From the NCBI GenBank assembly GCA_012522505.1, contig JAAYKJ010000149.1, positions 1-54,049 of the forward strand: 54,049 bases of DNA. Reading direction: 5' to 3'. How positions within the stretch are numbered: position 1 is the stretch's first letter; each line of letters starts with the position of its first letter. Positions 41,273 through 54,049 of this stretch are shown one piece after another. A model generated the notes under the pieces. That model was not told the DNA's origin. It did no database searches and saw nothing but the letters and a program-made list of their open reading frames with translations. The DNA is from Clostridiaceae bacterium. GTDB lineage: Bacteria; Bacillota; Clostridia; DSM-8532. The position numbers were made by a program, and so were the translations under genes.

Positions 41273-43156
41273 CTAATCATTCTTTTTCATTTTTCCGTTA
41301 TTGAACCATCCGAATTTGTTACCATTGCCGTTTTTGTTGTTACCTTCACCATTCCAGTTATACCATTGATTCCAGTCGAAGCCTTCCCAGTTCCAGTTAT
41401 CTTTTCCCCAACCGTTTTCATCTTTGACTTTGCTCCAATCGAATTTATCCCAGTAATCTGACCATTTTTGCCAATCAAAGTTTTCCCAGGAATCTCCGTC
41501 GAATTCTCCCCAGTGGAAATCTCCATATGGGAAGTCCTTCCAGTAGCCTTCCCAATCATCCCAGCTGAATTCCTCCGAATAAGAATCTTTCCAGTTGAAG
41601 CCAGGCCAGTTTTTCCAGTCGAAATCTTTCCAGTCTTTCCAGTCATAATCTTTCCAATCGAAATCTTCCCAGTTAAAATCCTTCCAGTCGTAATCCTTCC
41701 AATCTTTCCAGTTATAATCCCAGCCGCAATTGAACCAACCCTTCACATTGTTAAACCATTTCGTCTTGTATTTGTTGTTTGTGAATGGTTTGAAAACATC
41801 CCAAAGTACCTTTAAGTCCTGATAATCCATATCATGCTTTTCATATTGCTCAAGGTCCTTATCAAACCCTTCATGTTCATATTTATTCACAATAACCTTG
41901 GCCAAATCCAGCAGATCGAAAACATTGACATATCCATCACCATTCAGATCGTATTTGGCATCGTTTGGTATCGGTGTAGGTGTAGGTGTTGGCTTTGCTG
42001 GGTCTTTTTTCAGGATGCTGAGGTTTATACCGGTTATTTTGTTATCGACTGGTTTTACCATGGTAGCTTTTTTCGAAGAAGTCACTGTTCCATCTTTACT
42101 ATAGAACCCTTCGGCTTGATAGCCAGTACTTTTTGAGACAGTATACGAGACCAAATAATCGGTACTAGTGACCGGAACAACCATGCTGTAGTCGACAGAA
42201 TTGGCGCCCTTTTTGATTTGTACGGTTTCCATGAAGCTGAAATCATCATTGATGGAGGACGAACTGCCCTTGTTCAAAGCCGTGATGCTCGCTTCAAGAC
42301 CAGCAGCGGGAGCTTTCTCTCCATCAGGTAAGAGCAGTTTTCCGGAAATTATGGCAAAGGGATTTGTGATAAGATTGATACCGGTAACAGTGTTGCTAAC
42401 ATCAATCATCGTAACCTTGCTTTCGGTTCTTGATGTACAGCTGGTATGATAATAACCTGTTTCCCTGTATACGTCATTTTGATATGCGTAATATACCATA
42501 TAACCTTTTCCGGATGAATTCTGCGGTACTAATAGTTGGTAGGAAACATCGTCTTTACCTTTCGGAATCGTAACATCCTTTGATATGATGATATCATCAT
42601 CCGCGGAGTTGTTGTTCGAACCTTTTTGAATTGCAGTAATGGTGAATTTCATATCCTTCGGCAAGGTTGTTTTATTATTTCCAAGGGTAAGCTTTCCGGA
42701 AATGCTTTTCCCGGCAAGGATTTCAATATCAATACCTTTAACATCGCCCTTATTTAGGTTGATTTTGGTACGTTCTTCCTTGATGGCTGTTGTTCTGTCT
42801 TTGCTATACCAGCCGAAAGGAGCATAATCATTTCCTACGGTATAGAATACGGTGTATGTTGCATTCTTATTATCACTCTTAGGGACCTTCACACTGAAGG
42901 TGTGCGAATTTTTTCCCTTTGGGATTGTGATTTCATGTTCAATTTCAACATCGTCTTTTTTGTTAGATGGTGTGAGGTTATCAGTGCCGATCAGCAGTTT
43001 AACCTTGACACCTCCGGATGGTGCTTTCTCGTTACCAGGCAGTGAAATCGTTCCGGTTACATTTGAATATTTGGTGTCAGCCACAGAGGTTGTAGGGAAT
43101 AACATGAGCAGTAGACAAAAGCTGACGAATAGGGATAAAACTTTTATTTTTTTCAT
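41273..43156 (-). CDS. Secreted repeat protein with dockerin-like module and Trp/Asp/Lys-rich tail
   Basis: This 627-residue protein has a signal peptide (about 1-27) and three related beta-rich repeats of about 115-130 residues (up to about 388), each ending in a TxGI-type motif. A Pro-Thr linker follows (390-398). A dockerin-like EF-hand segment (about 400-425, DLNGDGYVNVFDLLDLAKVI) comes next; the second calcium repeat is degenerate. The last 160 residues are a low-complexity tail with about 29 Trp, built from units such as DWKDYDWKDFNWEDF. ATG 43156 follows AGGAGGT; upstream ATG 43240 precedes it. A cellulosome, polysaccharide or surface-binding role is possible but not shown. I know no family for the tail. 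Confidence 0.8.
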   Translation of the reverse strand: MKKIKVLSLFVSFCLLLMLFPTTSVADTKYSNVTGTISLPGNEKAPSGGVKVKLLIGTDNLTPSNKKDDVEIEHEITIPKGKNSHTFSVKVPKSDNKNATYTVFYTVGNDYAPFGWYSKDRTTAIKEERTKINLNKGDVKGIDIEILAGKSISGKLTLGNNKTTLPKDMKFTITAIQKGSNNNSADDDIIISKDVTIPKGKDDVSYQLLVPQNSSGKGYMVYYAYQNDVYRETGYYHTSCTSRTESKVTMIDVSNTVTGINLITNPFAIISGKLLLPDGEKAPAAGLEASITALNKGSSSSINDDFSFMETVQIKKGANSVDYSMVVPVTSTDYLVSYTVSKSTGYQAEGFYSKDGTVTSSKKATMVKPVDNKITGINLSILKKDPAKPTPTPTPIPNDAKYDLNGDGYVNVFDLLDLAKVIVNKYEHEGFDKDLEQYEKHDMDYQDLKVLWDVFKPFTNNKYKTKWFNNVKGWFNCGWDYNWKDWKDYDWKDFNWEDFDWKDYDWKDWKDFDWKNWPGFNWKDSYSEEFSWDDWEGYWKDFPYGDFHWGEFDGDSWENFDWQKWSDYWDKFDWSKVKDENGWGKDNWNWEGFDWNQWYNWNGEGNNKNGNGNKFGWFNNGKMKKND

Positions 43157-43489
43157 AACTACCTCCTGAATTCCTTTCCTGCGAACAATTCGCAATTCAA
43201 AATAGAATTGTGTTTCGATATTTAGACGAGTATTTTCCATATTTGTTCCATATCACCCCTGTTTTTCGTTACCATGATAGGCTTTTTTAACATTGTCCTC
43301 GAGCAACAAAAAGGAGATGATCCTGGTAAACCATAGCAATCGCCTTACATTATTGATATGTTTTTTTCCATCAATTTATAGACTTTAGTAAAATCTGTTA
43401 CAGAGTTGATATAAACTTGCAATTGGATTGAAACATTGTAAATTGCGTCTGCCGCGAGAAGCTGGTAATATGACATCCATAACCAGATG

Positions 43490-43621
43490 GATTACGGTTG
43501 ATAAGAAGTCTATTAATATCCAATGATTACGTTTGACAAGAAGTCTAATATTATCCAGTGATTACGTTTGACAAGAAGTCTAATATTATCCAGTGATTAC
43601 GATTTATAAAAGTCTATTGTA
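43490..43621. repeat. 35-bp tandem repeats
   Basis: Three full units and a partial fourth start exactly 35 bases apart at 43490, 43525, 43560 and 43595. Units two and three are almost identical and contain GATTACGTTTGACAAGAAG. They lie upstream of the Trp-rich protein gene and downstream of the VWA operon. The rest of the 535-base gap 43157-43691 is AT-rich, with no gene and no clear promoter found. Confidence 0.85.
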
Positions 43622-43646
43622 AAAGCTTACTGGGGTATAATTACCA

Positions 43647-43674
43647 AAAAAGCGCCTCTTGCGAGGCGCTTTTT
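43647..43674 (-). terminator. Terminator of the pilus/VWA operon
   Basis: A perfect 12-bp stem, 43647-43658 with 43663-43674, has a four-base loop and T-runs on both strands. It follows the VWA gene stop by 18 bases on the minus strand and could work in both directions. Confidence 0.88.
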
Positions 43675-43691: not shown

Positions 43692-46256
43692 TTAGTTAAT
43701 ATCAATAGCGTGATATAGATCTTTGACATCCGTTTCTCCTGATGTCCCATCGGGTAGTTGGTATTCGATCTTTGCCTTGTAGGATTTGTATATGTTCAGC
43801 CCAACAACTTCGTCATTGACTATTGTGTATGGATTGCCATCTTCATCGACCAACTTGACTGTGGCACCTGCTGGTCTGCTGATGGATATCTTCACGATAG
43901 CCTCTTCTCCGATCCTTCTTGTTCCAAGAACATTGAAATCTACATCATCAGAAACTTCAAATAAGCCATCCTTAACAGTGAGATCCAATTCAGCAAAATA
44001 CCTTTCCATGTTATCATTATTGATGTCTTTGTAAGTTAATATGGAAGTATTCCCGCTACCAAGGATATAGTCACCAGCATTGCTGCCTTTCAGTTTAATG
44101 AAAAAGTCTTTCTGATTGTTGGAGACAAACCGCCCTGAATCAGCATCATATGTATAGCTAATGTCTCCAAGATTCCCAGTAACAGTTTGTCCATTTATGA
44201 CCAGCCCTCCGGAAGCTTCGACAGGAACCAGACCTTCTGGGAAGACCTCTGAAAATTGAACGTTTAAAACAGAGTAATCGCTTATCACAATTTGAGAAAT
44301 CTCCTGATAGATGGTGTTAAGCGCTTCGGCATTTTCTGCTTCCTTGTATTGAGCCCCTGCTTCTGAAGCTGCCTCCTCAAGTGCATTCACCCGTGTTGAA
44401 AAAGCGATGAAGTAATTATTGATATCTTTTGTATTCAGCAGCTTGTCAACAACCTCCAAGCAGTATTCCTTGGCCTTTATAGTATCCGTTTTTGTATGCG
44501 GTGCACTTTCGCTACCAAGATAATAATCTTCGATATTGTTTGCCTTCTTTGTATACTGGGTAGGCTCACCGTCTGTTAAAAGAACAATGAACTTCTCTGC
44601 TGTGCTGCTGCCATTTTCCAGAATGTAGTAAGCCATTCTCAACCCATCACCAATGTTTGTGCCCATAATTGTGGGTAGAGCTTGTACTTCAGTTTTAATT
44701 TGTTCCAAATTACTGGTTAACTCGCTGCGTATTACTGCAGAAGCACTGAAAGATACCAATGCAACCTTAACTCCAGTTTTTTCTTTTAAACCATCGATAA
44801 AACTCAAGGCTGCGGCCTTTGCAATCGTTTCTCTGGAATCTTCGTTCCACATTAAATTACTGTTTCCACTAAGCCCTTTTTGCATACTGGTTGAAGTATC
44901 GAAAACCAGCACAATCTCTTTATCCTGATTTGTACTTGCAATCTGCATGGATTCTGGTGTAATGTTATAGCTTACCGTTGCAACATCGTCCAATTCTATT
45001 TCATCTTTGTCAAGTTCTCTATACATGGTTATCGGAGCGTTGATTTGCTTGACGGTCACATTCACCTCGTCAAAATACAGCTGCTGAGTATTATTATCCA
45101 GATCCTTATAGGTCATCTTCGAGGTATTGCCAGCACCCAGCACATAATCACCGGCAACATTCCCCTCCAACCTGACAGAGAATTCAATGGGATTGGCTTC
45201 ATATAAACTCGTATCAGCGTTATAACGGTACTTAATGGACGGAAGATTTCCAGATACATTCTGTCCGTTAACGGTTAATCCTTCTGATGCAGAAAGAACA
45301 GACAGCCCTGTCGGGAAGCTTTCTTCAAAGGCAACGTTCTGAATGGTGAAATCATTGATTATCGAATCGGAAATTTCATTATAAACACCATTCAAAGCTT
45401 CTGCATCTAAAGCCTGTTTGTATGTACCCCCGGCCTTTTGAGCGATATTGCTAAGAATATTCTGATCCGATCCGGTTGTAAAAGCAATCATGTAGGATTG
45501 TATGTCACTGGTTTTAATAAGCTCTTCAGCAACCTTGTAGCAATACTCCTTGTCTTCAAATGTGGCAGAAGAACCTCCGCCTTTGTACCTGTATGGAATA
45601 CCCTCTTCCATCATATATGGGTATTCCCCTATCATGTTTCCTCTACGATCATAACTGGGGTCATTCTTGATGCTGTGGTATGTTGGCTGACAATCGGTTA
45701 ACAGAATGATGTATTGATCTGCGTTGCTGTTTGATTTAATCAGTTCATAATACGCCGTGCGAAGACCATCACCAATATTGGTGCCAGTATTGGCTGTTAT
45801 TTTGTTTACTGCAGTTTTTACCTTACCGAAATCTGTAGTAAGACGGCACTTTATACTGGCAAGATCATCGTATGTGATCAAGCCTGCCTTTACATTGTCT
45901 AAGGAATCCAGCTTATTAAGGAAATTTATAGCTGCCTGTTTGGCGACCGCCAGCCTTGTTTTTCCATTCAGATTAGTATTCATACTGCCAGAGGTATCGA
46001 TAATAAGATAGAATTCCTTCGGTGTAGAGACAGTTATTGGCCCGGATACAGATTGCGGTTGAATCTTGTAGTTTACCGAAAACTGCTGATTCATCTGCAG
46101 AATGGTGTCGGATGAACTTCTGGTTAGAGCCATGGGTGTGGAAACACTTTGCGCTGAAGCACTAATCATATCAGAAGCCATGAAGCATATTAAAAGTGTA
46201 AACATGCTGACAAAGGATAGCGCTTTTTTCACAGAGTCTTTCTTCATCAGATTCAT
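43692..46256 (-). CDS. Secreted protein with two von Willebrand factor A domains
   Basis: This 854-residue protein has a signal peptide (about 1-36) and two tandem, homologous halves (about 80-405 and 446-760). Each half begins with a VWA domain bearing a MIDAS motif, DTSGS at Asp87 and DTSTS at Asp453. A beta-rich region follows each, with the shared motif GDYVLGAGNTSKMTYKD or GDYILGSGNTSILTYKD. No sortase motif or membrane anchor is visible at the C terminus. VWA domains bind ligands through a metal ion and cap several pili. As the last gene of a pilus-like operon, it may be a tip or adhesive component. This is inference. Confidence 0.82.
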   Translation of the reverse strand: MNLMKKDSVKKALSFVSMFTLLICFMASDMISASAQSVSTPMALTRSSSDTILQMNQQFSVNYKIQPQSVSGPITVSTPKEFYLIIDTSGSMNTNLNGKTRLAVAKQAAINFLNKLDSLDNVKAGLITYDDLASIKCRLTTDFGKVKTAVNKITANTGTNIGDGLRTAYYELIKSNSNADQYIILLTDCQPTYHSIKNDPSYDRRGNMIGEYPYMMEEGIPYRYKGGGSSATFEDKEYCYKVAEELIKTSDIQSYMIAFTTGSDQNILSNIAQKAGGTYKQALDAEALNGVYNEISDSIINDFTIQNVAFEESFPTGLSVLSASEGLTVNGQNVSGNLPSIKYRYNADTSLYEANPIEFSVRLEGNVAGDYVLGAGNTSKMTYKDLDNNTQQLYFDEVNVTVKQINAPITMYRELDKDEIELDDVATVSYNITPESMQIASTNQDKEIVLVFDTSTSMQKGLSGNSNLMWNEDSRETIAKAAALSFIDGLKEKTGVKVALVSFSASAVIRSELTSNLEQIKTEVQALPTIMGTNIGDGLRMAYYILENGSSTAEKFIVLLTDGEPTQYTKKANNIEDYYLGSESAPHTKTDTIKAKEYCLEVVDKLLNTKDINNYFIAFSTRVNALEEAASEAGAQYKEAENAEALNTIYQEISQIVISDYSVLNVQFSEVFPEGLVPVEASGGLVINGQTVTGNLGDISYTYDADSGRFVSNNQKDFFIKLKGSNAGDYILGSGNTSILTYKDINNDNMERYFAELDLTVKDGLFEVSDDVDFNVLGTRRIGEEAIVKISISRPAGATVKLVDEDGNPYTIVNDEVVGLNIYKSYKAKIEYQLPDGTSGETDVKDLYHAIDIN

Positions 46257-46280
46257 TTTAATTCAACTCCCTTATAAATA

Positions 46281-47411
46281 TTACTGAACGATTTCTTTAT
46301 TTTGAATGAAATACAATTTGTAGACTAAACGCTCGTCGCTCTCCCCCAATGTTTCAATATTGAAGGAATCGGTGTCGTTTATCTGTACTGAAATATTAAT
46401 TTCTTCATTTGTTTTCATCTTAAGAATATATTCATCGAACAATTGAAGTGGCTCCAGATGTCTGTCGTATGTAGTAAGAAGTTGTCTGAAAGCTGTAGAA
46501 AGCAAATCGTCAGTGGCGTTATGTACCAATGCGAAGATATTTTTCTCGAAGTCGTTATTATTCAGTGAAATTGTGTTATCACCTACGGCAACAACGGTGC
46601 TACTTTCCCATAAGCTGATTATACCAATATTTTGGTTATTTGACAACTCTTTTAAAACATTAAATGTTTCAATTCCGTAACAATCTACAAATTGATTAAC
46701 AATTTGTACGCTTGGGGTATTATTTTCAAGTGAAATGTCACTTAATATCAGTGTTCCATAAACACTTTCAAGGAGATGCTCGGTGTTGGCAAGGCGGTAT
46801 AACAGAGCAATTGACTGTTCTATGGTAGCATTCCCCAGGGGATCCATAACGTTTCCGCCATAACCATTCAGAATACCATTCTCAAAGCAATAATCAACAT
46901 AGTATACAGCCCAGTCGCTGAGCTGAGCACTATCGGCGTATTGATAGGTACCTTTCAGGGTGAAATCACGGTCTGGCGAGATCTGATTCAACAAGTTAAC
47001 AACCAGGGAAGCAATTTCCTGTCTGGTAATATTATTATCTGGGAAAAAGTTTCCCTTTCCATCCCCTTTGATGATACCAGCATTATAGGCCTTGATGATA
47101 TCAGCTTCATACGGATGGTTTTCTGTATCCTTGAATGGATTGCTGTCTGCTATCTCGACGGTTTTCCCGGAAAGGTTAAAAACTTCAAGGGCAATAAGCA
47201 CATATTCGTATCGCTTGATGTTGGTTTGATAATTCCCCTGCAAAACAGATGGAACAAGTTTTTTTTCAATCGCAGCGTATATTTCGGGTTCGGCCCACGA
47301 ACTTGGCTGGTTAGTAGCAGCAGCAAAAGATGTAAATCCAATAATGTTTTGAATTATGAATATCGCAACGATGCCTATCAGAAAACACTTCCCTTTACAA
47401 TTTTTTATCAT
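46281..47411 (-). CDS. S-layer homology (SLH) domain surface protein
   Basis: This 376-residue exported protein has a signal peptide (about 1-32), then three SLH-like modules over about 35-215. The second is the clearest, with AYNAGIIKGDGKGNFFPDNNITRQE. SLH domains bind pyruvylated wall polymers, so the protein should sit at the cell surface. The C-terminal 160 residues match nothing I recognise. ATG 47411 follows GGGAGG; an in-frame ATG at 47453 precedes it and overlaps the upstream gene. The gene is ten bases after the lipoprotein gene. Confidence 0.82.
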   Translation of the reverse strand: MIKNCKGKCFLIGIVAIFIIQNIIGFTSFAAATNQPSSWAEPEIYAAIEKKLVPSVLQGNYQTNIKRYEYVLIALEVFNLSGKTVEIADSNPFKDTENHPYEADIIKAYNAGIIKGDGKGNFFPDNNITRQEIASLVVNLLNQISPDRDFTLKGTYQYADSAQLSDWAVYYVDYCFENGILNGYGGNVMDPLGNATIEQSIALLYRLANTEHLLESVYGTLILSDISLENNTPSVQIVNQFVDCYGIETFNVLKELSNNQNIGIISLWESSTVVAVGDNTISLNNNDFEKNIFALVHNATDDLLSTAFRQLLTTYDRHLEPLQLFDEYILKMKTNEEINISVQINDTDSFNIETLGESDERLVYKLYFIQNKEIVQ

Positions 47412-47421
47412 TATATCCTCC

Positions 47422-48642
47422 CTATCCATTATTCTGAATAACATAGTATTCATTTAGTTTAATCTTTTCAATAACCAGAGAGCCACTCTCATTCGAAAGA
47501 ATTACCAAGTAATCGTAACGATATAAGTAGTCTTCATCGGTTATACCATTTGTTTTCTGAACATAAGCGTCAAAATTAACGAAATACCATTTAATCTTAT
47601 CTGAGTAAGCTGGATGTGGCACAACATTGAAGTTGTCAACACTTTTAATCTTTTCCATATCAAAACGTAATGGCAGTGATTCATATGGAAAATTGGTTGT
47701 ATAATCTTCTGTCAGCTCAATATCTTTTGCAATTCCAAGACTATCCCAGTAACCACGGACATCATCCAACCCCTGAGTCCATTTATGGGACAAAAGGTTC
47801 ATCCGCGTTCTGTCAAGCAGTGACAAGTTCTCAAAGAAATTTACAATAATCCCCTTCTCTTTTTCGTAAATTTCTCCGTCTGCAGGATTATTGTATATAC
47901 TTCCATCAGCAGTCTGTGAAATGTCAATATATGGTAGCCTGGTAATGCTTTCATTGTTTAATATGAATAGCCTGTTTTTTAACCCCGGCTTAATATTAGA
48001 CTCGATAGCCTTGACTATCTTCAGATCACCGTTAGTGTTTTCCAATTCAACATCATACCTGATTTCAACTCGCATGCCGTCTATATCTGTAGGGAAAATC
48101 TCCTCCTTCTTCAAATAAGTGTTATCCAACTGAACTAAGAAGCTTTTCTCGAACGTCTCGTTAGGAATTGCTCTTACCTTGGCATTTATTTTACAGAAAT
48201 ATATTAGATTGTCACCATTTTCCCCAACAAAGCCTGCGGTTACATCGGGTTTGGAATCTTTACCCAGACGTACAACATCATATCCAATAATAGTCATTCC
48301 GTTTAAGCTTATATATCGTGGGAGATGGATCCCTATTTCTGGATTTCCGTTGCCTTCCTTGATCGTCTGTTCGGATATATATTTTACAATTGATTCGGGA
48401 ATCGTTCCCGTTGCTGTATTTTCTGTATAGATATCAACCGATGGAACTGTAAATAGAATTGAAAAATATTCCGAAATCAATTGTTTCGCAGCCTCATCTA
48501 ACTCACGGCTAACCTTTGGAATCTGTGGTGTTTGAACAGGAGGTGGCTGTATTTCCACAGGTGCTCCGACATTAAGGATACAGCTTGAAGCTGCTGTTAA
48601 TAGTATGAGTATGAGTAACAGATAGTACAATTTCTTCATCAT
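47422..48642 (-). CDS. Lipoprotein of unknown function in the pilus-like operon
   Basis: This 406-residue protein has a hydrophobic N terminus ending in a lipobox, AASSC, with lipidated Cys at about residue 21. A Pro-rich spacer (PPPVQTPQIPK) follows, then a domain with no family I recognise. Its ATG overlaps the stop of the preceding PilX-like gene (ATGA), so it is translationally coupled to the pilus genes. Membrane anchoring next to a pilus suggests an assembly or anchoring role, comparable in place, not sequence, to pilotins. Confidence 0.65.
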   Translation of the reverse strand: MMKKLYYLLLILILLTAASSCILNVGAPVEIQPPPVQTPQIPKVSRELDEAAKQLISEYFSILFTVPSVDIYTENTATGTIPESIVKYISEQTIKEGNGNPEIGIHLPRYISLNGMTIIGYDVVRLGKDSKPDVTAGFVGENGDNLIYFCKINAKVRAIPNETFEKSFLVQLDNTYLKKEEIFPTDIDGMRVEIRYDVELENTNGDLKIVKAIESNIKPGLKNRLFILNNESITRLPYIDISQTADGSIYNNPADGEIYEKEKGIIVNFFENLSLLDRTRMNLLSHKWTQGLDDVRGYWDSLGIAKDIELTEDYTTNFPYESLPLRFDMEKIKSVDNFNVVPHPAYSDKIKWYFVNFDAYVQKTNGITDEDYLYRYDYLVILSNESGSLVIEKIKLNEYYVIQNNG

Positions 48643-51017
48643 GGTGATGGTTCCTCCACATTAAAAATATCAAACAAATCTAAGGAGCGGCTCCCAGGGT
48701 TATCATCCCGAAATTTCTCCAATAAATCCCTTGCATTAGTAAAATAAATGCTTCCGCCATTCTTTATTTCAATGGCCGTATATTTCTTTAGCCTGCCAAA
48801 TTCATCAGCATATGGACCTTCGGTGGGATCTACCCTTGGCAGATGGTCATCAGAATCAGCCGCAGATCCCTTAACACTACCTTCATGATATCCTCGTCCA
48901 GCAGCAATGATTGATCCATTCACGACACCATTTTCTTCAATGATCACTTTTCCTACGGTAAATATCAGTCCGGAAAATTCATCGGAGACTATCAAGGTAT
49001 TCTCGGGATCCTGATTGACAACAAGAAAATGATAGTCTTGATAGTTTTGACCACTACTTATATAGGCATTCTCAAGAACCTGATTGATAAACGTTTGCTT
49101 ATCCACTTCCATACCGTCATCAGGTATACTGAGTACACAGCGGTGAAACGGATCGTTGGGAAATTCGGTCGGATCGGATAATCTCTGTTTCAACCGGCCA
49201 AATTCTGTAACTCCATTTGGCGCTCTTTTCAATTGGTAATTATATTCACCGCCAGAGGCCTGTTTGCTTGCAAAAACCTGAACATGGCTCATCAAAAGAT
49301 TCATAAGGTCGTCCAGCTTTTTCGGAATGCCGATATCTAAGCTCGTATAACTCCACCAATCTGACGGATCCATCTGAAGCATTTTTGCTGTTTCATCTGG
49401 ATTTGATAAGTATTCTATTTTATGAACAACATCCAAATAAACGGTTGATATATGGGATGTATCGAAGTTCGTTTCATTGAACTGATAAAACCGGTTATTT
49501 GCTGCAATTCCTAAATTACAATACCCACGTAACGCAATGGAAGATGGTACGCCAATAGCGGCATTATTATTATTGCTTATACCATTGGCGGGGTTGACGG
49601 CACTTTTAATATCGCTTATCCAATTCTTCCACAGTTCCCAGTTACCTTTAACATCAGGACCTGCGTTATCATAGGCCCAGTTCACCTTCCACAGCACCGA
49701 AAAACCATCCAAGTCTGAAAGATTATCTTCAATCCTTTGGTTATATGCATTCTGGGTTGAATTAAAAGGAATGTTTTTAGCTAAATGAAAAGGTTTATAT
49801 TCTCCTGATGCGTTAGGCATCCAGTTCATAGCAACTGATTCCAGCTTATGCCCTGCGGTAGTTTCACCACCATCCTCTTCCACTCTGAATGTAACCCCAT
49901 TGATGAAGACATCTCCATTGATAACACTTCTGGACCGTCTGTATTCCGGGCTGGTGCCATACATAGGCGCCACATTAATTACGCTACTGGAAGCATCATG
50001 CTCGTTCTCTCTCCCTTCACACAGTCCAAAATAATTCCTGTTAATGGCAATAATTGAGTTTGCACCATTCATTTCCACATCATCGAAGGTATACGCATCA
50101 CGACAAACAACAATATTATCATTAGAACCGAAAACCTGAATTCCTTGGGCAACAACATCGTTATCAACAATAATATTTGCTTTTGCGGACAATCCATCGG
50201 AATCATCAAATGTTCCTGAACGAACCAGGTTGCGTGTGAATATACTACCGTTCTTAACATGCAGGATGGAATTTTCCATCGCACATACACCGCCCAGATA
50301 GTATTGTTGCATACGATTTGTTTTGTCCAAACCTGTTCCAAACGCATAAATATCTCCCTGTATAGTGGAATGATTACCATCGATGTTAATATCTTTGCCT
50401 TCTGTGACGATCAGATCACCGAGTGTATAGGCTGCTCCCCTTAATGTGAATTTTGAATAAATGGAAACTTCAAAATCTCTTACAGCGACCACCTTTCTGC
50501 CATAAGACTTGAACGCGTCATCAACCATTTCGCTCTGTGCGGTAATTTGTAATGGAAAAATTAGTTTGCTACCCGTATTGGTAAAGGTAGTAGAGTCAAA
50601 CCTGTCAAACCTGACACTCACTTGTGCTTCATTCATCTCGTCATGGACTTTGACATTATAATCTTTACGAATTAAAGTATCTGCGTTGATCTGTGCAATT
50701 AGTTCATTCAAATACTGATTATCGTTGCCGGAATAAATTACACCTCTGCTGGCTGCGTAGTCGGTTTGAGTAATGGTATCCAGTAAATCGGCGATACTGT
50801 TTTCAACCGTGTTTTCCGCAGCTATATAGGCGAGTTGATCATGATAACCGTCACGGGTTATTGTGAACATCTGCATGGTGGAATAAGCTACGGATCCACC
50901 AACCAGCAACAGAACCATAACTAGCAGCATCACAAGCGGCATTGCGTTTCCCGTTGTGTTCCAGAGGAATAATGAAACGATATTTTTGCACTTATGAGTG
51001 GTTCGTTTATTTTTCAT
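48639..51017 (-). CDS. PilX-like pilus-associated surface protein
   Basis: This 792-residue protein begins with a basic stretch and a hydrophobic helix (GNAMPLVMLLVMVLLLVGGSVAYS). That resembles the N terminus of PilX-type minor pilin-associated proteins, though the canonical Gly-Phe cleavage motif and Glu5 are absent. The body contains repeated beta-strand patterns (for example ILHVKNGSIFTRNLVRSG and GVVNGSIIAAGRG), suggesting a beta-helix or bactofilin-like fold. It lies 12 bases after a prepilin gene. It may be a large minor subunit at the pilus base or tip. Confidence 0.65.
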   Translation of the reverse strand: MKNKRTTHKCKNIVSLFLWNTTGNAMPLVMLLVMVLLLVGGSVAYSTMQMFTITRDGYHDQLAYIAAENTVENSIADLLDTITQTDYAASRGVIYSGNDNQYLNELIAQINADTLIRKDYNVKVHDEMNEAQVSVRFDRFDSTTFTNTGSKLIFPLQITAQSEMVDDAFKSYGRKVVAVRDFEVSIYSKFTLRGAAYTLGDLIVTEGKDINIDGNHSTIQGDIYAFGTGLDKTNRMQQYYLGGVCAMENSILHVKNGSIFTRNLVRSGTFDDSDGLSAKANIIVDNDVVAQGIQVFGSNDNIVVCRDAYTFDDVEMNGANSIIAINRNYFGLCEGRENEHDASSSVINVAPMYGTSPEYRRSRSVINGDVFINGVTFRVEEDGGETTAGHKLESVAMNWMPNASGEYKPFHLAKNIPFNSTQNAYNQRIEDNLSDLDGFSVLWKVNWAYDNAGPDVKGNWELWKNWISDIKSAVNPANGISNNNNAAIGVPSSIALRGYCNLGIAANNRFYQFNETNFDTSHISTVYLDVVHKIEYLSNPDETAKMLQMDPSDWWSYTSLDIGIPKKLDDLMNLLMSHVQVFASKQASGGEYNYQLKRAPNGVTEFGRLKQRLSDPTEFPNDPFHRCVLSIPDDGMEVDKQTFINQVLENAYISSGQNYQDYHFLVVNQDPENTLIVSDEFSGLIFTVGKVIIEENGVVNGSIIAAGRGYHEGSVKGSAADSDDHLPRVDPTEGPYADEFGRLKKYTAIEIKNGGSIYFTNARDLLEKFRDDNPGSRSLDLFDIFNVEEPSP

Positions 51018-51029
51018 CTTTACTCCACC

Positions 51030-51479
51030 TTAATCAGGATAAGTTTCGATCGAATACTTTGCCAAAACAGGCCCATCCGTTCTCTTACGGATCGTAATCA
51101 TGTATTTTTTCACACCGTTTGATAATCCATCATAGGTAAGATCAAATACATATGGATAACTTTTATCGGTCAAATCCTTAACCGGTAAATTTTTCAAAGT
51201 CATATCAGCGAGTGAATCAGCATCGGATGCTTTAAACCCTGTTGCATATATGGAAGTATCAGTTTTGATGGATCTTACAACATTCTCTTTAACAACCCTT
51301 ATTACTGCGTTGATAATCAACTGTTCTTCTGACAATTTTGAAATCCTTGATAGCGAGAAAAACATGGATGTTATACCAACTGAAACAATCGCAATCAATA
51401 ATATGGCTATCACAGCTTCCAATAAAGTAAACCCTTTGTTATTTAGCTGTATTTCATTTAGGTACTTTTTCATCATCAA
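51030..51479 (-). CDS. Type IV prepilin-like protein
   Basis: This 149-residue protein has a classic class III signal: NNKG followed by FTLLEAVIAILLIAIVSVGIT, with cleavage after Gly and Glu at mature position 5. The globular part is short (about 100 residues), as in minor pilins or pseudopilins of the PilV/GspI kind. It overlaps the upstream PilO-like gene by four bases. Confidence 0.88.
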   Translation of the reverse strand: MMMKKYLNEIQLNNKGFTLLEAVIAILLIAIVSVGITSMFFSLSRISKLSEEQLIINAVIRVVKENVVRSIKTDTSIYATGFKASDADSLADMTLKNLPVKDLTDKSYPYVFDLTYDGLSNGVKKYMITIRKRTDGPVLAKYSIETYPD

Positions 51480-52588
51480 AAATATACCTTCTCCTTGTCA
51501 CTTTTTGCCTCAATGACATTTCCGTCACGATCCATTATCTTGATTCGGTTACCCGTCTGTTCCAATTTAGCGAGAATTTTATTGCTTGAGTCGTTTTTTA
51601 TCGTAATATTTACCTGCAAATTACTGTTTTCTTTAACTTGTGGATCAAGGTTCGATTGCATGTAAAATGTCAATGTTCTGTTGGGTATACTCCCAGTAAA
51701 TACATCCCTGTTTCCTTCGCTGTCCAGAGATTCAAGAGTATAACTTGAGCCTTCTATGGTTAAAAACACATCCACCTTTTCTTTGGTCGTCATTCTTGAC
51801 CTTTCGGATGAATTCAATGATGAAAAGGTTTCAAAATTATACCCACCAAATAGATATCCTCGGTGAAAGACAATAAAATCCGCATTGAAGATAGTTATTT
51901 TGCCGTCATCAGATTTTTCATTCGATGCTGTTGAGGGGAAAACTGGCAGGTTATCATTGTCTTTAATAAAGAGTGGTTTGCCTTCACGATCTTTAAATTC
52001 CTTAAACTTTGAACGGCTGAATTCAAAAAGCTTGTCTGCAGAACCTCTATTGATAGAGTAGAACATAAGGCTCAGTGATACATCATAATAATCATTTTCT
52101 TTCGATGGTATAAGGCTAAAACCAGTGACACCTACTTTTTGTGAGCCCCCCTCACAATACCGAATTATTTCTTGAAATTTGTCATAGGTGAAGGAGGCAG
52201 CGAATGAAACAGGAAAACCATAATAGCTGATGTCATTGGAGGAAATAGCCTTGGGGGCTCCCAAGGAGATGCTCAACAGTTCGGTATCCAGCATCATGGC
52301 CAGATCTTCAACAAACTTAATGCTGTCACTTAGGCTGGCATTGTCCATCAGATAGTCTCCAAGACGTTCATCAACAACAGCTTTCGCTTTTGTTTCAGCC
52401 TTATAGGCTTCAATATTTAAGTAATCGGCATCAAGCGCCGCCTTTTGCGCCTGTACTTGAGCAAGTGTCTCCTTCTTCATCTCGATTTGAGGAAGCCCAT
52501 TCATGACAACTACTTTAGCAAAGGCAAAAGCATATACTAATAACAACAGAACTATAATCATCGCTTTTTCTTTTTTATTTAAGGCCAT
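51476..52588 (-). CDS. pilO: PilO-like pilus assembly protein
   Basis: This 370-residue protein has one N-terminal membrane helix (about 8-28), a coiled-coil (about 35-75) and a C-terminal alpha/beta region. The order and place directly after the PilN-like gene match PilO, which aligns the pilus assembly platform. It is longer than Gram-negative PilO (about 210 residues); the extra C-terminal 170 residues have no recognised domain. The assignment rests on topology and context more than on motifs. Confidence 0.65.
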   Translation of the reverse strand: MALNKKEKAMIIVLLLLVYAFAFAKVVVMNGLPQIEMKKETLAQVQAQKAALDADYLNIEAYKAETKAKAVVDERLGDYLMDNASLSDSIKFVEDLAMMLDTELLSISLGAPKAISSNDISYYGFPVSFAASFTYDKFQEIIRYCEGGSQKVGVTGFSLIPSKENDYYDVSLSLMFYSINRGSADKLFEFSRSKFKEFKDREGKPLFIKDNDNLPVFPSTASNEKSDDGKITIFNADFIVFHRGYLFGGYNFETFSSLNSSERSRMTTKEKVDVFLTIEGSSYTLESLDSEGNRDVFTGSIPNRTLTFYMQSNLDPQVKENSNLQVNITIKNDSSNKILAKLEQTGNRIKIMDRDGNVIEAKSDKEKVYF

Positions 52589-52601
52589 TATATACCTCCC
52601 G

Positions 52602-53153
52602 TTATTTCTTTACCGTGTATTGCAAGCTGTATTCGACTGGTACAAGGGATTGTTCCATCGACAATGCGCCAGCATGGCTTTCTAATTGCTGTAGTCTGTC
52701 GAGATTGCTGACAAACTCGGCATAAACGATGCTGCTTCCGGCAACACCTGACAAGCTGATGGTACTTCCGCTAAAATTAATGCTTTTGATATAGCAATCT
52801 GCTGGTACCGCTTGCTTAACAAGGAGAAGGATCTGAGACGCTGAAGGATTTTTTTGATCAATATCTTTGATGACGGTTTTTTTTCTATCTACTACCTGGG
52901 TAATTGTCATCAGATCTGCTTTTGCACTTCGTAATGCTGCATATTTTGGGTCAGTCATGCTGTGTTCTACGTCAGAAATCTGTTTTTCTATTCTGTCGAT
53001 CATTATGCCTGGAATAAAAAGAGCCAGTACTGCTATTGATAAACAGAGAATAAAAATGATAATTTGTACAGCAGGAACACTCTTTTGCTTTCCCTTGGCT
53101 CCTTCTTTTGTGGAAGCCAAAGGTTCTGTAACGAGAAAATTAATATCTTTCAT
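52602..53153 (-). CDS. pilN: PilN-like pilus assembly protein
   Basis: This 183-residue protein starts with the typical cytoplasmic MKDINFLV tail, which in PilN docks onto PilM. A membrane helix (about 28-52), a coiled-coil and a small ferredoxin-like C-terminal domain (with YIKSINFSGSTISLSGVA) follow. The ribosome site is GGAGGCGATAGA. A pilM gene is not seen in the window; it may lie beyond the right edge or be missing. Confidence 0.75.
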   Translation of the reverse strand: MKDINFLVTEPLASTKEGAKGKQKSVPAVQIIIFILCLSIAVLALFIPGIMIDRIEKQISDVEHSMTDPKYAALRSAKADLMTITQVVDRKKTVIKDIDQKNPSASQILLLVKQAVPADCYIKSINFSGSTISLSGVAGSSIVYAEFVSNLDRLQQLESHAGALSMEQSLVPVEYSLQYTVKK

Positions 53154-53238
53154 TCTATCGCCTCCATTTTCATTGCTTTATTCAATACACCGATATGGAT
53201 CTACTCAAAAAAGCAATGATAGACCAAATGTTCACATA

Positions 53239-53793
53239 TCATGGCACCGGTAAAGATAATGAATGTTTTCTGTTCAGCAGGCTGTATGCTGCGGTGATTG
53301 GTTCATTCATGTTCAGCGCATTTCTACCGGTACTGGTCTTATCAGGTTCAAGAAGAACAGTCAGGCAATCATACCCATAGATAAAGGCACTGTTGTCGGT
53401 AAGCCCTTTAACAATGCTCGTAAAATTGGCAACACTGTCATCCGCGCGGTACCAAAGTTCACCGTTTTCCAGTTTGTATTCTCCAATCCACTGCTTATCT
53501 CCTTCGTTTGGCATATATGCAAACAGTTGAATAGACCTGTATTCCGGGTGTGAAATCTCATCACAGATGATCACCTGCGAGGCAGCTTCAATATCCCTGT
53601 TCAATCTAGAAAAAGCATCCTGAACTGTATACTGTTGTCTGCCATACAGGGAGAATGCTTTTGATGAAGTAATATTGAAGCCGAGAAGCTGTGTAACGAT
53701 GACCGATATTAAACCAATAATAATTAGTGCCAGCAACACTTCTACGATGGTAAAACCTTTTTTATTTTTAATAGAAATCCCTCCAATGACCAA
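53239..53793 (-). CDS. Type IV prepilin-like protein (PilW/GspJ kind)
   Basis: This 184-residue protein carries a prepilin signal: NKKG followed by FTIVEVLLALIIIGLISVIV, with Glu at mature position 5. The start is odd. TTG 53793 uses a GGGAG site that is inside the upstream hairpin. A second, free GGAGGG lies at codons 4-5, followed six bases later by an in-frame ATT (53772-53770). That ATT would give the typical short leader MKNKKG. I list the longer form. Confidence 0.82.
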   Translation of the reverse strand: MVIGGISIKNKKGFTIVEVLLALIIIGLISVIVTQLLGFNITSSKAFSLYGRQQYTVQDAFSRLNRDIEAASQVIICDEISHPEYRSIQLFAYMPNEGDKQWIGEYKLENGELWYRADDSVANFTSIVKGLTDNSAFIYGYDCLTVLLEPDKTSTGRNALNMNEPITAAYSLLNRKHSLSLPVP

Positions 53794-53795
53794 GG

Positions 53796-53832
53796 TTCAC
53801 TCCCGCCATTTCATAGAAATGGTGGGAGTGAA
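53796..53832 (-). terminator. Large hairpin between pilin genes
   Basis: The arms 53796-53812 and 53816-53832 pair at 16 of 17 positions around a three-base loop. It follows the upstream pilin stop by seven bases. There is no U-run, so a partial terminator or mRNA stabiliser separating an abundant pilin from minor components is likely. Confidence 0.7.
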
Positions 53833-53839
53833 GTAAAAA

Positions 53840-54049
53840 TTAAGTACCTGAACCTGAAGAAACAAATGAAACTACTGCTTTGGTTTCATCATCAGTTGGT
53901 AATACATCAACCACCTGCATTCTTGTGTCAACATTAATTATCCAGCCTTTTGTATTTGGGGTTTTCGGTGACATATCTTTTGTCAGGTCCAGGAAAGGCA
54001 CGAATGTTCAAGCAAAATCAGAAGCATCCTTTTTAACACCAGCACCAGG
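53840..54049 (-). pseudogene. C-terminal end of a pilin-like gene with in-frame UGA, cut by the window edge
   Basis: A frame read leftward from the window edge gives PGAGVKKDASDFA, then a UGA stop (54010-54008). It continues in the same frame through TFVPFLDLTKDMSPKT and GWIINVDTRMQVVDVLPTDD to a proper stop at 53840. Composition and position, just upstream of minor prepilin genes, suggest the C-terminal domain of a pilin. The UGA may be a point mutation (for example of TGG), a sequence error, or recoding. The N-terminal part lies outside the window, so the identity is tentative. Confidence 0.5.

Follow-up and report, generated by a model that had tools for sequence, protein, structure and literature searches.

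A clostridial type IVa pilus operon that continues into lipoprotein, SLH and VWA genes

Layout of the distal operon

The window analysed here, a stretch of 54,049 bases (positions 1–54,049) from a Clostridiaceae bacterium, is a whole contig (C54), so that the assembly contains no DNA to the right of nucleotide 54,049. Nucleotides 43,692–53,793, on the minus strand like every operon feature given below, are the distal part of a type IVa pilus operon in which the pil genes are followed by genes for a lipoprotein, an SLH protein, and a VWA protein. All of these genes are open and closely spaced, with successive gaps of 85, 13, −4, 12, −4, −32, and 24 bases, in agreement with the short spacings of a preliminary description of the sequence, whose eight full-length open reading frames were likewise all recovered in the order and on the strand given there. 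That description had spoken of a fused operon; the surface genes are merely adjacent to the pilus genes. It had also counted two ATGA overlaps, of which the pilX/lipoprotein junction is one, while the pilO/prepilin junction reads TTTTTGATGATG and is either a TTGA overlap or an ATG just past the stop codon. For the SLH gene, the probable start is an ATG further downstream, preceded by its own GGAGG.

From its upstream end, this part of the operon encodes a minor pilin whose position is kept in relatives (prepilin 1, nt. 53,239–53,793; N_methyl, 3.7e-6), PilN (nt. 52,602–53,153; Pfam PilN, 1.1e-7), a 370-residue PilO with a C-terminal extension (nt. 51,476–52,588), a second minor pilin (prepilin 2, nt. 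51,030–51,479; N_methyl, 8.8e-7), and a large PilX-like minor-pilin candidate with an N-terminal helix and a bactofilin-like stretch (nt. 48,639–51,017). The next genes encode the lipoprotein, with two predicted NTF2-like domains (nt. 47,422–48,642), the SLH protein, in which an SLH part is joined to a C-terminal domain of no known family (nt. 46,281–47,453; Pfam SLH, 1.2e-18), and a secreted double-VWA protein with a motif set of the metal-ion-dependent adhesion site (MIDAS) type in each VWA domain (nt. 43,692–46,256; VWA_2, 1.9e-35, in two stretches). For the prepilins, PilN, SLH, and VWA proteins of the window, NCBIfam agrees with the Pfam assignments.

Upstream of prepilin 1, nucleotides 53,820–54,049 had been taken for a pilin remnant; they are the 3′ end of an ordinary pilA, the major pilin gene, truncated by the contig end. 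The tail (..SDFA*TFVPFLDLTKDMSPK..GWIINVDTRMQVVDV) aligns with that of pilA in the relative G002 (..SDFAGTFGPFLDLTKDMAPK..GWIINIDTTLQVVDV), and pilA occupies the same place in the operons of relatives. A single in-frame TGA lies ~40 bases from the contig edge (~54,008), where a same-genus relative has Gly. The genome's own pilB, on another contig, also has a single in-frame TGA, just past the Walker A motif (C148:1185, L023), where relatives have Leu. Both TGAs are either nonsense mutations or assembly errors.

The operon ends in an intrinsic terminator hairpin (nt. 43,646–43,674) downstream of the VWA gene, with a 12-bp stem, a U-rich 3′ arm, and a folding energy of −23.6 kcal/mol (z −6.17), which bears out the strong terminator noted earlier. 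A terminator scan of the window did not pick up this hairpin, probably because the T run pairs within the stem. A promoter scan gave 41 candidates against 33.7 in shuffled sequence (sd 7.2), and, lacking an excess, is uninformative on internal promoters.

The complete operon in relatives and the type of pilus

Pilus genes missing from the window were found in the genome itself and in its relatives. PilB, PilT, and the beginning of PilM are encoded on contig C148 of the same assembly (3196 bases), which is linked to the window by gene order alone. No contig of the genome was found to overlap the right end of the window. The genome's own pilC was not located; relatives have pilC in the operon. 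The complete genome G010 holds the unbroken order pilB-pilT-pilM-pilC-pilA-prepilin-pilN-pilO-prepilin-pilX-lipoprotein-SLH-VWA, which is repeated, as far as the contigs reach, in six further genomes (G002, G006, G007, G012, G016, and G019) and in the named metagenome-assembled genome (MAG) contig DUNZ01000234 (L039), and is divided over two contigs in G004. The relatives that bear a name in the collection are MAGs of Clostridia, Ruminiclostridium sp. JAAYJG010000508 among them. The order is retained across other genera and families at 25–60% protein identity, and this points to more than chance.

The locus has the marks of a type IVa pilus, i.e., the PilB and PilT ATPases and the PilC platform protein (in G010 and others) together with N_methyl class III prepilins, PilN, and PilO. 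The preliminary description had left the choice between a pilus and a pseudopilus; given a PilT-type ATPase in every operon copy that reaches far enough, the evidence speaks for a retractile pilus and disfavours the pseudopilus. Were the operon nonetheless a secretion pseudopilus like that of type II secretion systems, exporting wall- or fibre-degrading proteins with the SLH and VWA proteins as cargo or receptors, the PilO/GspM-type similarity and the dockerin-type protein encoded beside the operon would fit. Besides PilT, however, two points weigh against this: the operon has no secretin (neither PilP nor a secretin was matched by Pfam or NCBIfam among its window proteins), and Sec cargo needs no pseudopilus for export from a monoderm cell. 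We consider it very improbable.

The PilO of the window is recognised via its family, as Pfam PilO matches 5 of 16 homologues (best 2.8e-6) and T2SSM matches nine of them. Proteins of this operon type have 370–449 residues, compared to 173–179 in the family's other pil operon, and the C-terminal half is conserved (alignment A8). PilO is enlarged in monoderms generally, and a role in wall crossing or anchoring has been speculated (PMC6916266). The PilX-like protein is conserved in all carriers (742–866 residues); its name holds by position and by the N-terminal hydrophobic helix, with only a weak PilX_N match in 3 of 17 homologues (best 1.2e-3) and a weak similarity to Bactofilin (0.017).

Several variations were noted among other pil operons. 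In those of family f51 (L066–L072 and L074), pilM was not detected between pilT and pilC, and the translated pilT-pilC gaps of L066 and L068 (360–460 bases) contained no frame resembling it. A pil operon of a different family within the window's order (G025:C213, L101) has a 445-residue protein at the PilO position; no lipoprotein of the window's type was found in that genome, and the L101 contig ends soon after. The other pil operon of the window's own family encodes a protein with Secretin_N and STN matches and no secretin barrel match (L021:490-2175, which is the genome's own C114; L103:1684-3111; L110:1046-2467). The C114 copy carries a LysM domain. By its domains, this protein is a candidate barrel-less, PilQ-like, wall-binding component in a monoderm cell; PilQ homologues have been reported in some Gram-positives (PMC3244431).

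Beyond the terminator, between it and a dockerin-type gene, lies a tandem array of a 35-bp unit (nt. 43,490–43,616; 3.7 copies, 90% matches). The product of the dockerin-type gene adjoining the operon (nt. 41,273–43,240) is a secreted protein of 655 residues that combines a dockerin-like stretch with a repetitive tail rich in Trp, Asp, and Lys. A relative of this protein (L110_12, 52% identical) is encoded beside the other pil operon in G019.

Distribution and features of the surface proteins

We followed the three extra genes through 391 genomes sampled at class level and 33 at order level, with an additional phylum-wide search for the lipoprotein. The lipoprotein was above noise in 14 of the 391 genomes, belonging to the window's family (f1), to three genera of f51, and to f26, and in all 14 the gene sits in a homologous pil operon; one of the f51 carriers is a single contig of 3,843,301 bases. 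Each of the ten f51 and f26 loci read has it at the end of the pil series, after pilX, and lacks a following SLH or VWA gene of the window's families. Across the phylum, the search returned only the window's genome and two weak N-terminal matches, hence nothing convincing beyond the window itself. Weak N-terminal matches in G003, G169, G257, and G279 were set aside as signal-peptide-like.

By comparison, the SLH protein's C-terminal domain was found in 4 of the 391 genomes, all in f1, and the VWA protein in 8 of the 33, in each case in the pil operon or, at contig breaks, in a place consistent with it. In the class-wide search, run at a cut-off (1e-30) strict enough that distant VWA relatives could remain, the VWA protein was confined to f1 save for a match in the unrelated genome G119, which we rejected because the generic VWA part alone had matched. 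Used as a query against the genome contigs, the VWA protein returned no relative; the lipoprotein alignment did find relatives. Since the lipoprotein occurs in the f1, f51, and f26 operons, and the SLH and VWA genes only in those of f1, the lipoprotein is the constant of this operon type, a broadly conserved extra part, and the SLH and VWA genes are a family-level addition. The preliminary description had treated the three as one set without stressing the lipoprotein; the linkage of the set to the pilus holds, and its unity does not.

That the surface genes are part of the pilus operon is borne out by their co-occurrence and order in relatives. This type of pil operon is present in 9 of the 33 order-level genomes, and the same nine have at least one of the three extra genes, with the missing ones falling at contig breaks (hypergeometric 2.6e-8, a value that ignores kinship and assumes that the pilN loci left unread, in G009, G042, and G047, are of another type). 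Where a family member lacks the operon, the three genes are missing too, and its pil operons, if it has any, are of other kinds. We also looked for relatives with surface genes unlinked to pilus genes; the VWA carriers (8 of 33) and the carriers of the SLH protein's C-terminal domain (4 of 391) included no such case.

Clostridia commonly have SLH and VWA proteins. The two could be independent surface proteins, physically unconnected to the pilus and sharing the operon solely so as to be co-expressed in cells that live attached, and their absence from the f51 and f26 operons does mean that the pilus there can dispense with them. Within f1, however, neither gene was ever found away from the pil operon, and their place behind the lipoprotein is constant, which makes independence distinctly unlikely in our estimation.

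The SLH protein carries the motifs of the prism that binds wall polymer. In the predicted model, its SLH part matches the SLH domains of Sap and SpaA (3pyw, 6bt4, 7sv4; template modelling (TM) score 0.71–0.78 by target), and several of the matched structures contain pyruvylated units of the wall polymer. A CsaB-type pyruvyl transferase is encoded in the genome (269.9 bits against a cut-off of 213.1). By eye, the third SLH motif lacks the usual Arg (ATIEQ).

The VWA protein has 854 residues. Its two halves share 40% identity, and both contain the DxSxS, T, and D residues of the MIDAS (DTSGS/DTSTS, GTNIGDGL, LTD). The double-VWA form described earlier applies to the window; each of the seven relatives read has one DxSxS motif, and their second repeat, where present, aligns without a VWA insert, which suggests that the VWA domain is inserted in a beta-rich repeat. 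Family members also share a short conserved C-terminal tail (..AIDIN, ..GVNVN; nt. 43,692–43,720 in the window, alignment A2).

If the VWA protein capped the pilus tip as a metal-dependent adhesin, like PilY1, and the SLH protein coupled the pilus to the S-layer, this would suit the MIDAS motifs, which are intact in all family copies read, and the large PilX-like subunit, which could present the VWA protein. There is also a precedent in Streptococcus sanguinis PilB, where a vWA module serves as a pilus adhesin (PMC8179133). However, a prepilin motif is absent from the VWA protein, and its 854 residues give no Pfam or NCBIfam match to the C-terminal PilY1 beta-propeller, which leaves it without any feature that would put it on the filament; the missing propeller also agrees with the preliminary view of a protein built from different parts than PilY1. 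An SLH protein holding the VWA protein on the wall would be the simpler arrangement, and we regard a tip cap as possible though rather unlikely.

The lipoprotein as a wall-crossing candidate and comparison with known systems

All 18 lipoprotein homologues share Cys21 behind a hydrophobic stretch, within a lipobox-like context, and none gave a convincing Pfam, NCBIfam, or PDB-sequence match. An AlphaFold model built from 18 sequences (mean predicted local distance difference test, pLDDT, 85) has two helix-then-sheet domains, predicted to be NTF2-like, at about residues 45–236 and 250–402. The best Foldseek match is TcpC (3ub1, E 1.2e-7), and all eight PDB chains at E ≤ 0.001 are conjugation proteins, four of TcpC (3ub1) and four of OrfG (7pkw, 8s7l). 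Two successive extracytoplasmic NTF2-like domains are what characterises these VirB8-like proteins, and the lipoprotein is predicted to have them, with a poor whole-body superposition. In a VIA-align comparison with 3ub1 (Z 10.0, 222 residues, both domains), the root-mean-square deviation (rmsd) is 17.6, so the domains match and their mutual arrangement does not. The second domain also resembles many NTF2-like proteins (Z 8 to 9.6). We considered an ordinary NTF2-like enzyme and rejected it; proteins of that kind do match single domains, but coverage of both domains is confined, within the top Foldseek matches, to the conjugation proteins. No sequence-family match to VirB8-like proteins and no type IV secretion neighbours were found for the lipoprotein, its neighbours being pil genes.

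By sequence, the motors PilB and PilT, the platform PilC, PilM-PilN-PilO, a major pilin, two prepilins, and the PilX-like protein are encoded in one locus with the lipoprotein, SLH, and VWA proteins. We hold at about even confidence that the lipoprotein, PilO, and SLH protein form a pilus-specific, wall-crossing collar and anchor, and that the VWA protein is a secreted adhesive module. A retractile type IVa machine of a monoderm Clostridia cell would, in that event, be equipped with its own envelope module. The lipoprotein would sit at the outer face of the membrane and build the collar together with the extended PilO, conducting the filament out of the PilN/PilO ring into the wall, a role that PilP and the secretin have in Gram-negative cells and for which the VirB8-like wall complex of Gram-positive conjugation machines offers a likeness. 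The SLH protein would fasten the collar to the secondary wall polymer, and the VWA protein, attached to either the SLH protein or the filament, may bind ligands via the MIDAS sites. VirB8-like OrfG is reported to be trimeric and TcpC to share this assembly, and such proteins are reported to make up the section of the conjugation channel that lies in the wall (PMC11753425).

Several points weigh against the collar. The resemblance to TcpC and OrfG holds per domain, with a whole-body rmsd of ~18 Å and a TM score of ~0.19 by query; NTF2-like folds are common and serve many functions, and the match comes from one predicted chain. The lipoprotein also carries a lipobox in place of the transmembrane helix of VirB8-like proteins. 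The SLH protein model is modest (pLDDT 68, 7 sequences), the f51 and f26 operons lack the SLH and VWA genes, so that neither is essential for pilus assembly generally, and, given the TGAs in pilB and pilA, the genome's own operon copy may be defective or mis-sequenced.

A bolder proposal, which we offer tentatively and think doubtful, is that the lipoprotein is the missing wall-crossing part of clostridial type IV pili, a lipid-anchored VirB8 relative or look-alike that multimerises into a conduit from PilN/PilO to the surface and is locked in place by the SLH protein in one family. If true, monoderm pili and conjugation machines would share one way through the thick wall. For the passage of type IV pili through the thick monoderm wall, a review of the field offers speculation on PilO (PMC6916266), and we found no account of the lipoprotein as a pilus part in the open-access literature; pili genes are reported to be expressed in Clostridium thermocellum (PMC5327387). 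The operon names a specific candidate, a conserved and so far unannotated lipoprotein that is encoded at the distal end of clostridial pil operons and whose predicted architecture is otherwise known from conjugation proteins that cross the wall, and this makes wall passage a testable question.

Among known systems, PilY1 and PilC1 share with the VWA protein a VWA domain with MIDAS motifs encoded beside type IV pilus genes; the window protein, however, lacks the beta-propeller, has two VWA domains in beta-rich repeats, and has other gene neighbours. S. sanguinis PilB (PMC8179133) is likewise a vWA protein with a MIDAS from a monoderm type IV pilus operon, with the module grafted on a pilin there and carried by a separate Sec-type secreted protein here. 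The VirB8-like TcpC (pCW3) and OrfG (ICESt3) share with the lipoprotein two successive NTF2-like domains outside the membrane and belong to machines that must cross the wall. The lipoprotein differs from them in its lipobox, larger domains, other domain arrangement, and pilus instead of conjugation neighbours, and sequence similarity was not detected. The TsaP- and FimV-type anchors of Gram-negative pili are wall-binding proteins proposed to fix the pilus machine in the envelope through LysM and peptidoglycan; the SLH protein, which has no homology to them, would instead bind the secondary wall polymer.

The monoderm type IVa pili of S. sanguinis and Clostridium perfringens (PMC6916266) share with the present operon PilB, PilT, PilC, PilM, PilN, the enlarged PilO, and class III prepilins, and this operon likewise has no secretin. 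The model of monoderm pili in that review includes no lipoprotein or SLH component. Compared to these systems, the present operon adds the conserved lipoprotein with its two predicted NTF2-like domains and a PilX-like subunit of very large size, to which one family adds the SLH and VWA proteins. The theme of a monoderm type IVa pilus is known; the lipoprotein family and the SLH/VWA addition are new.

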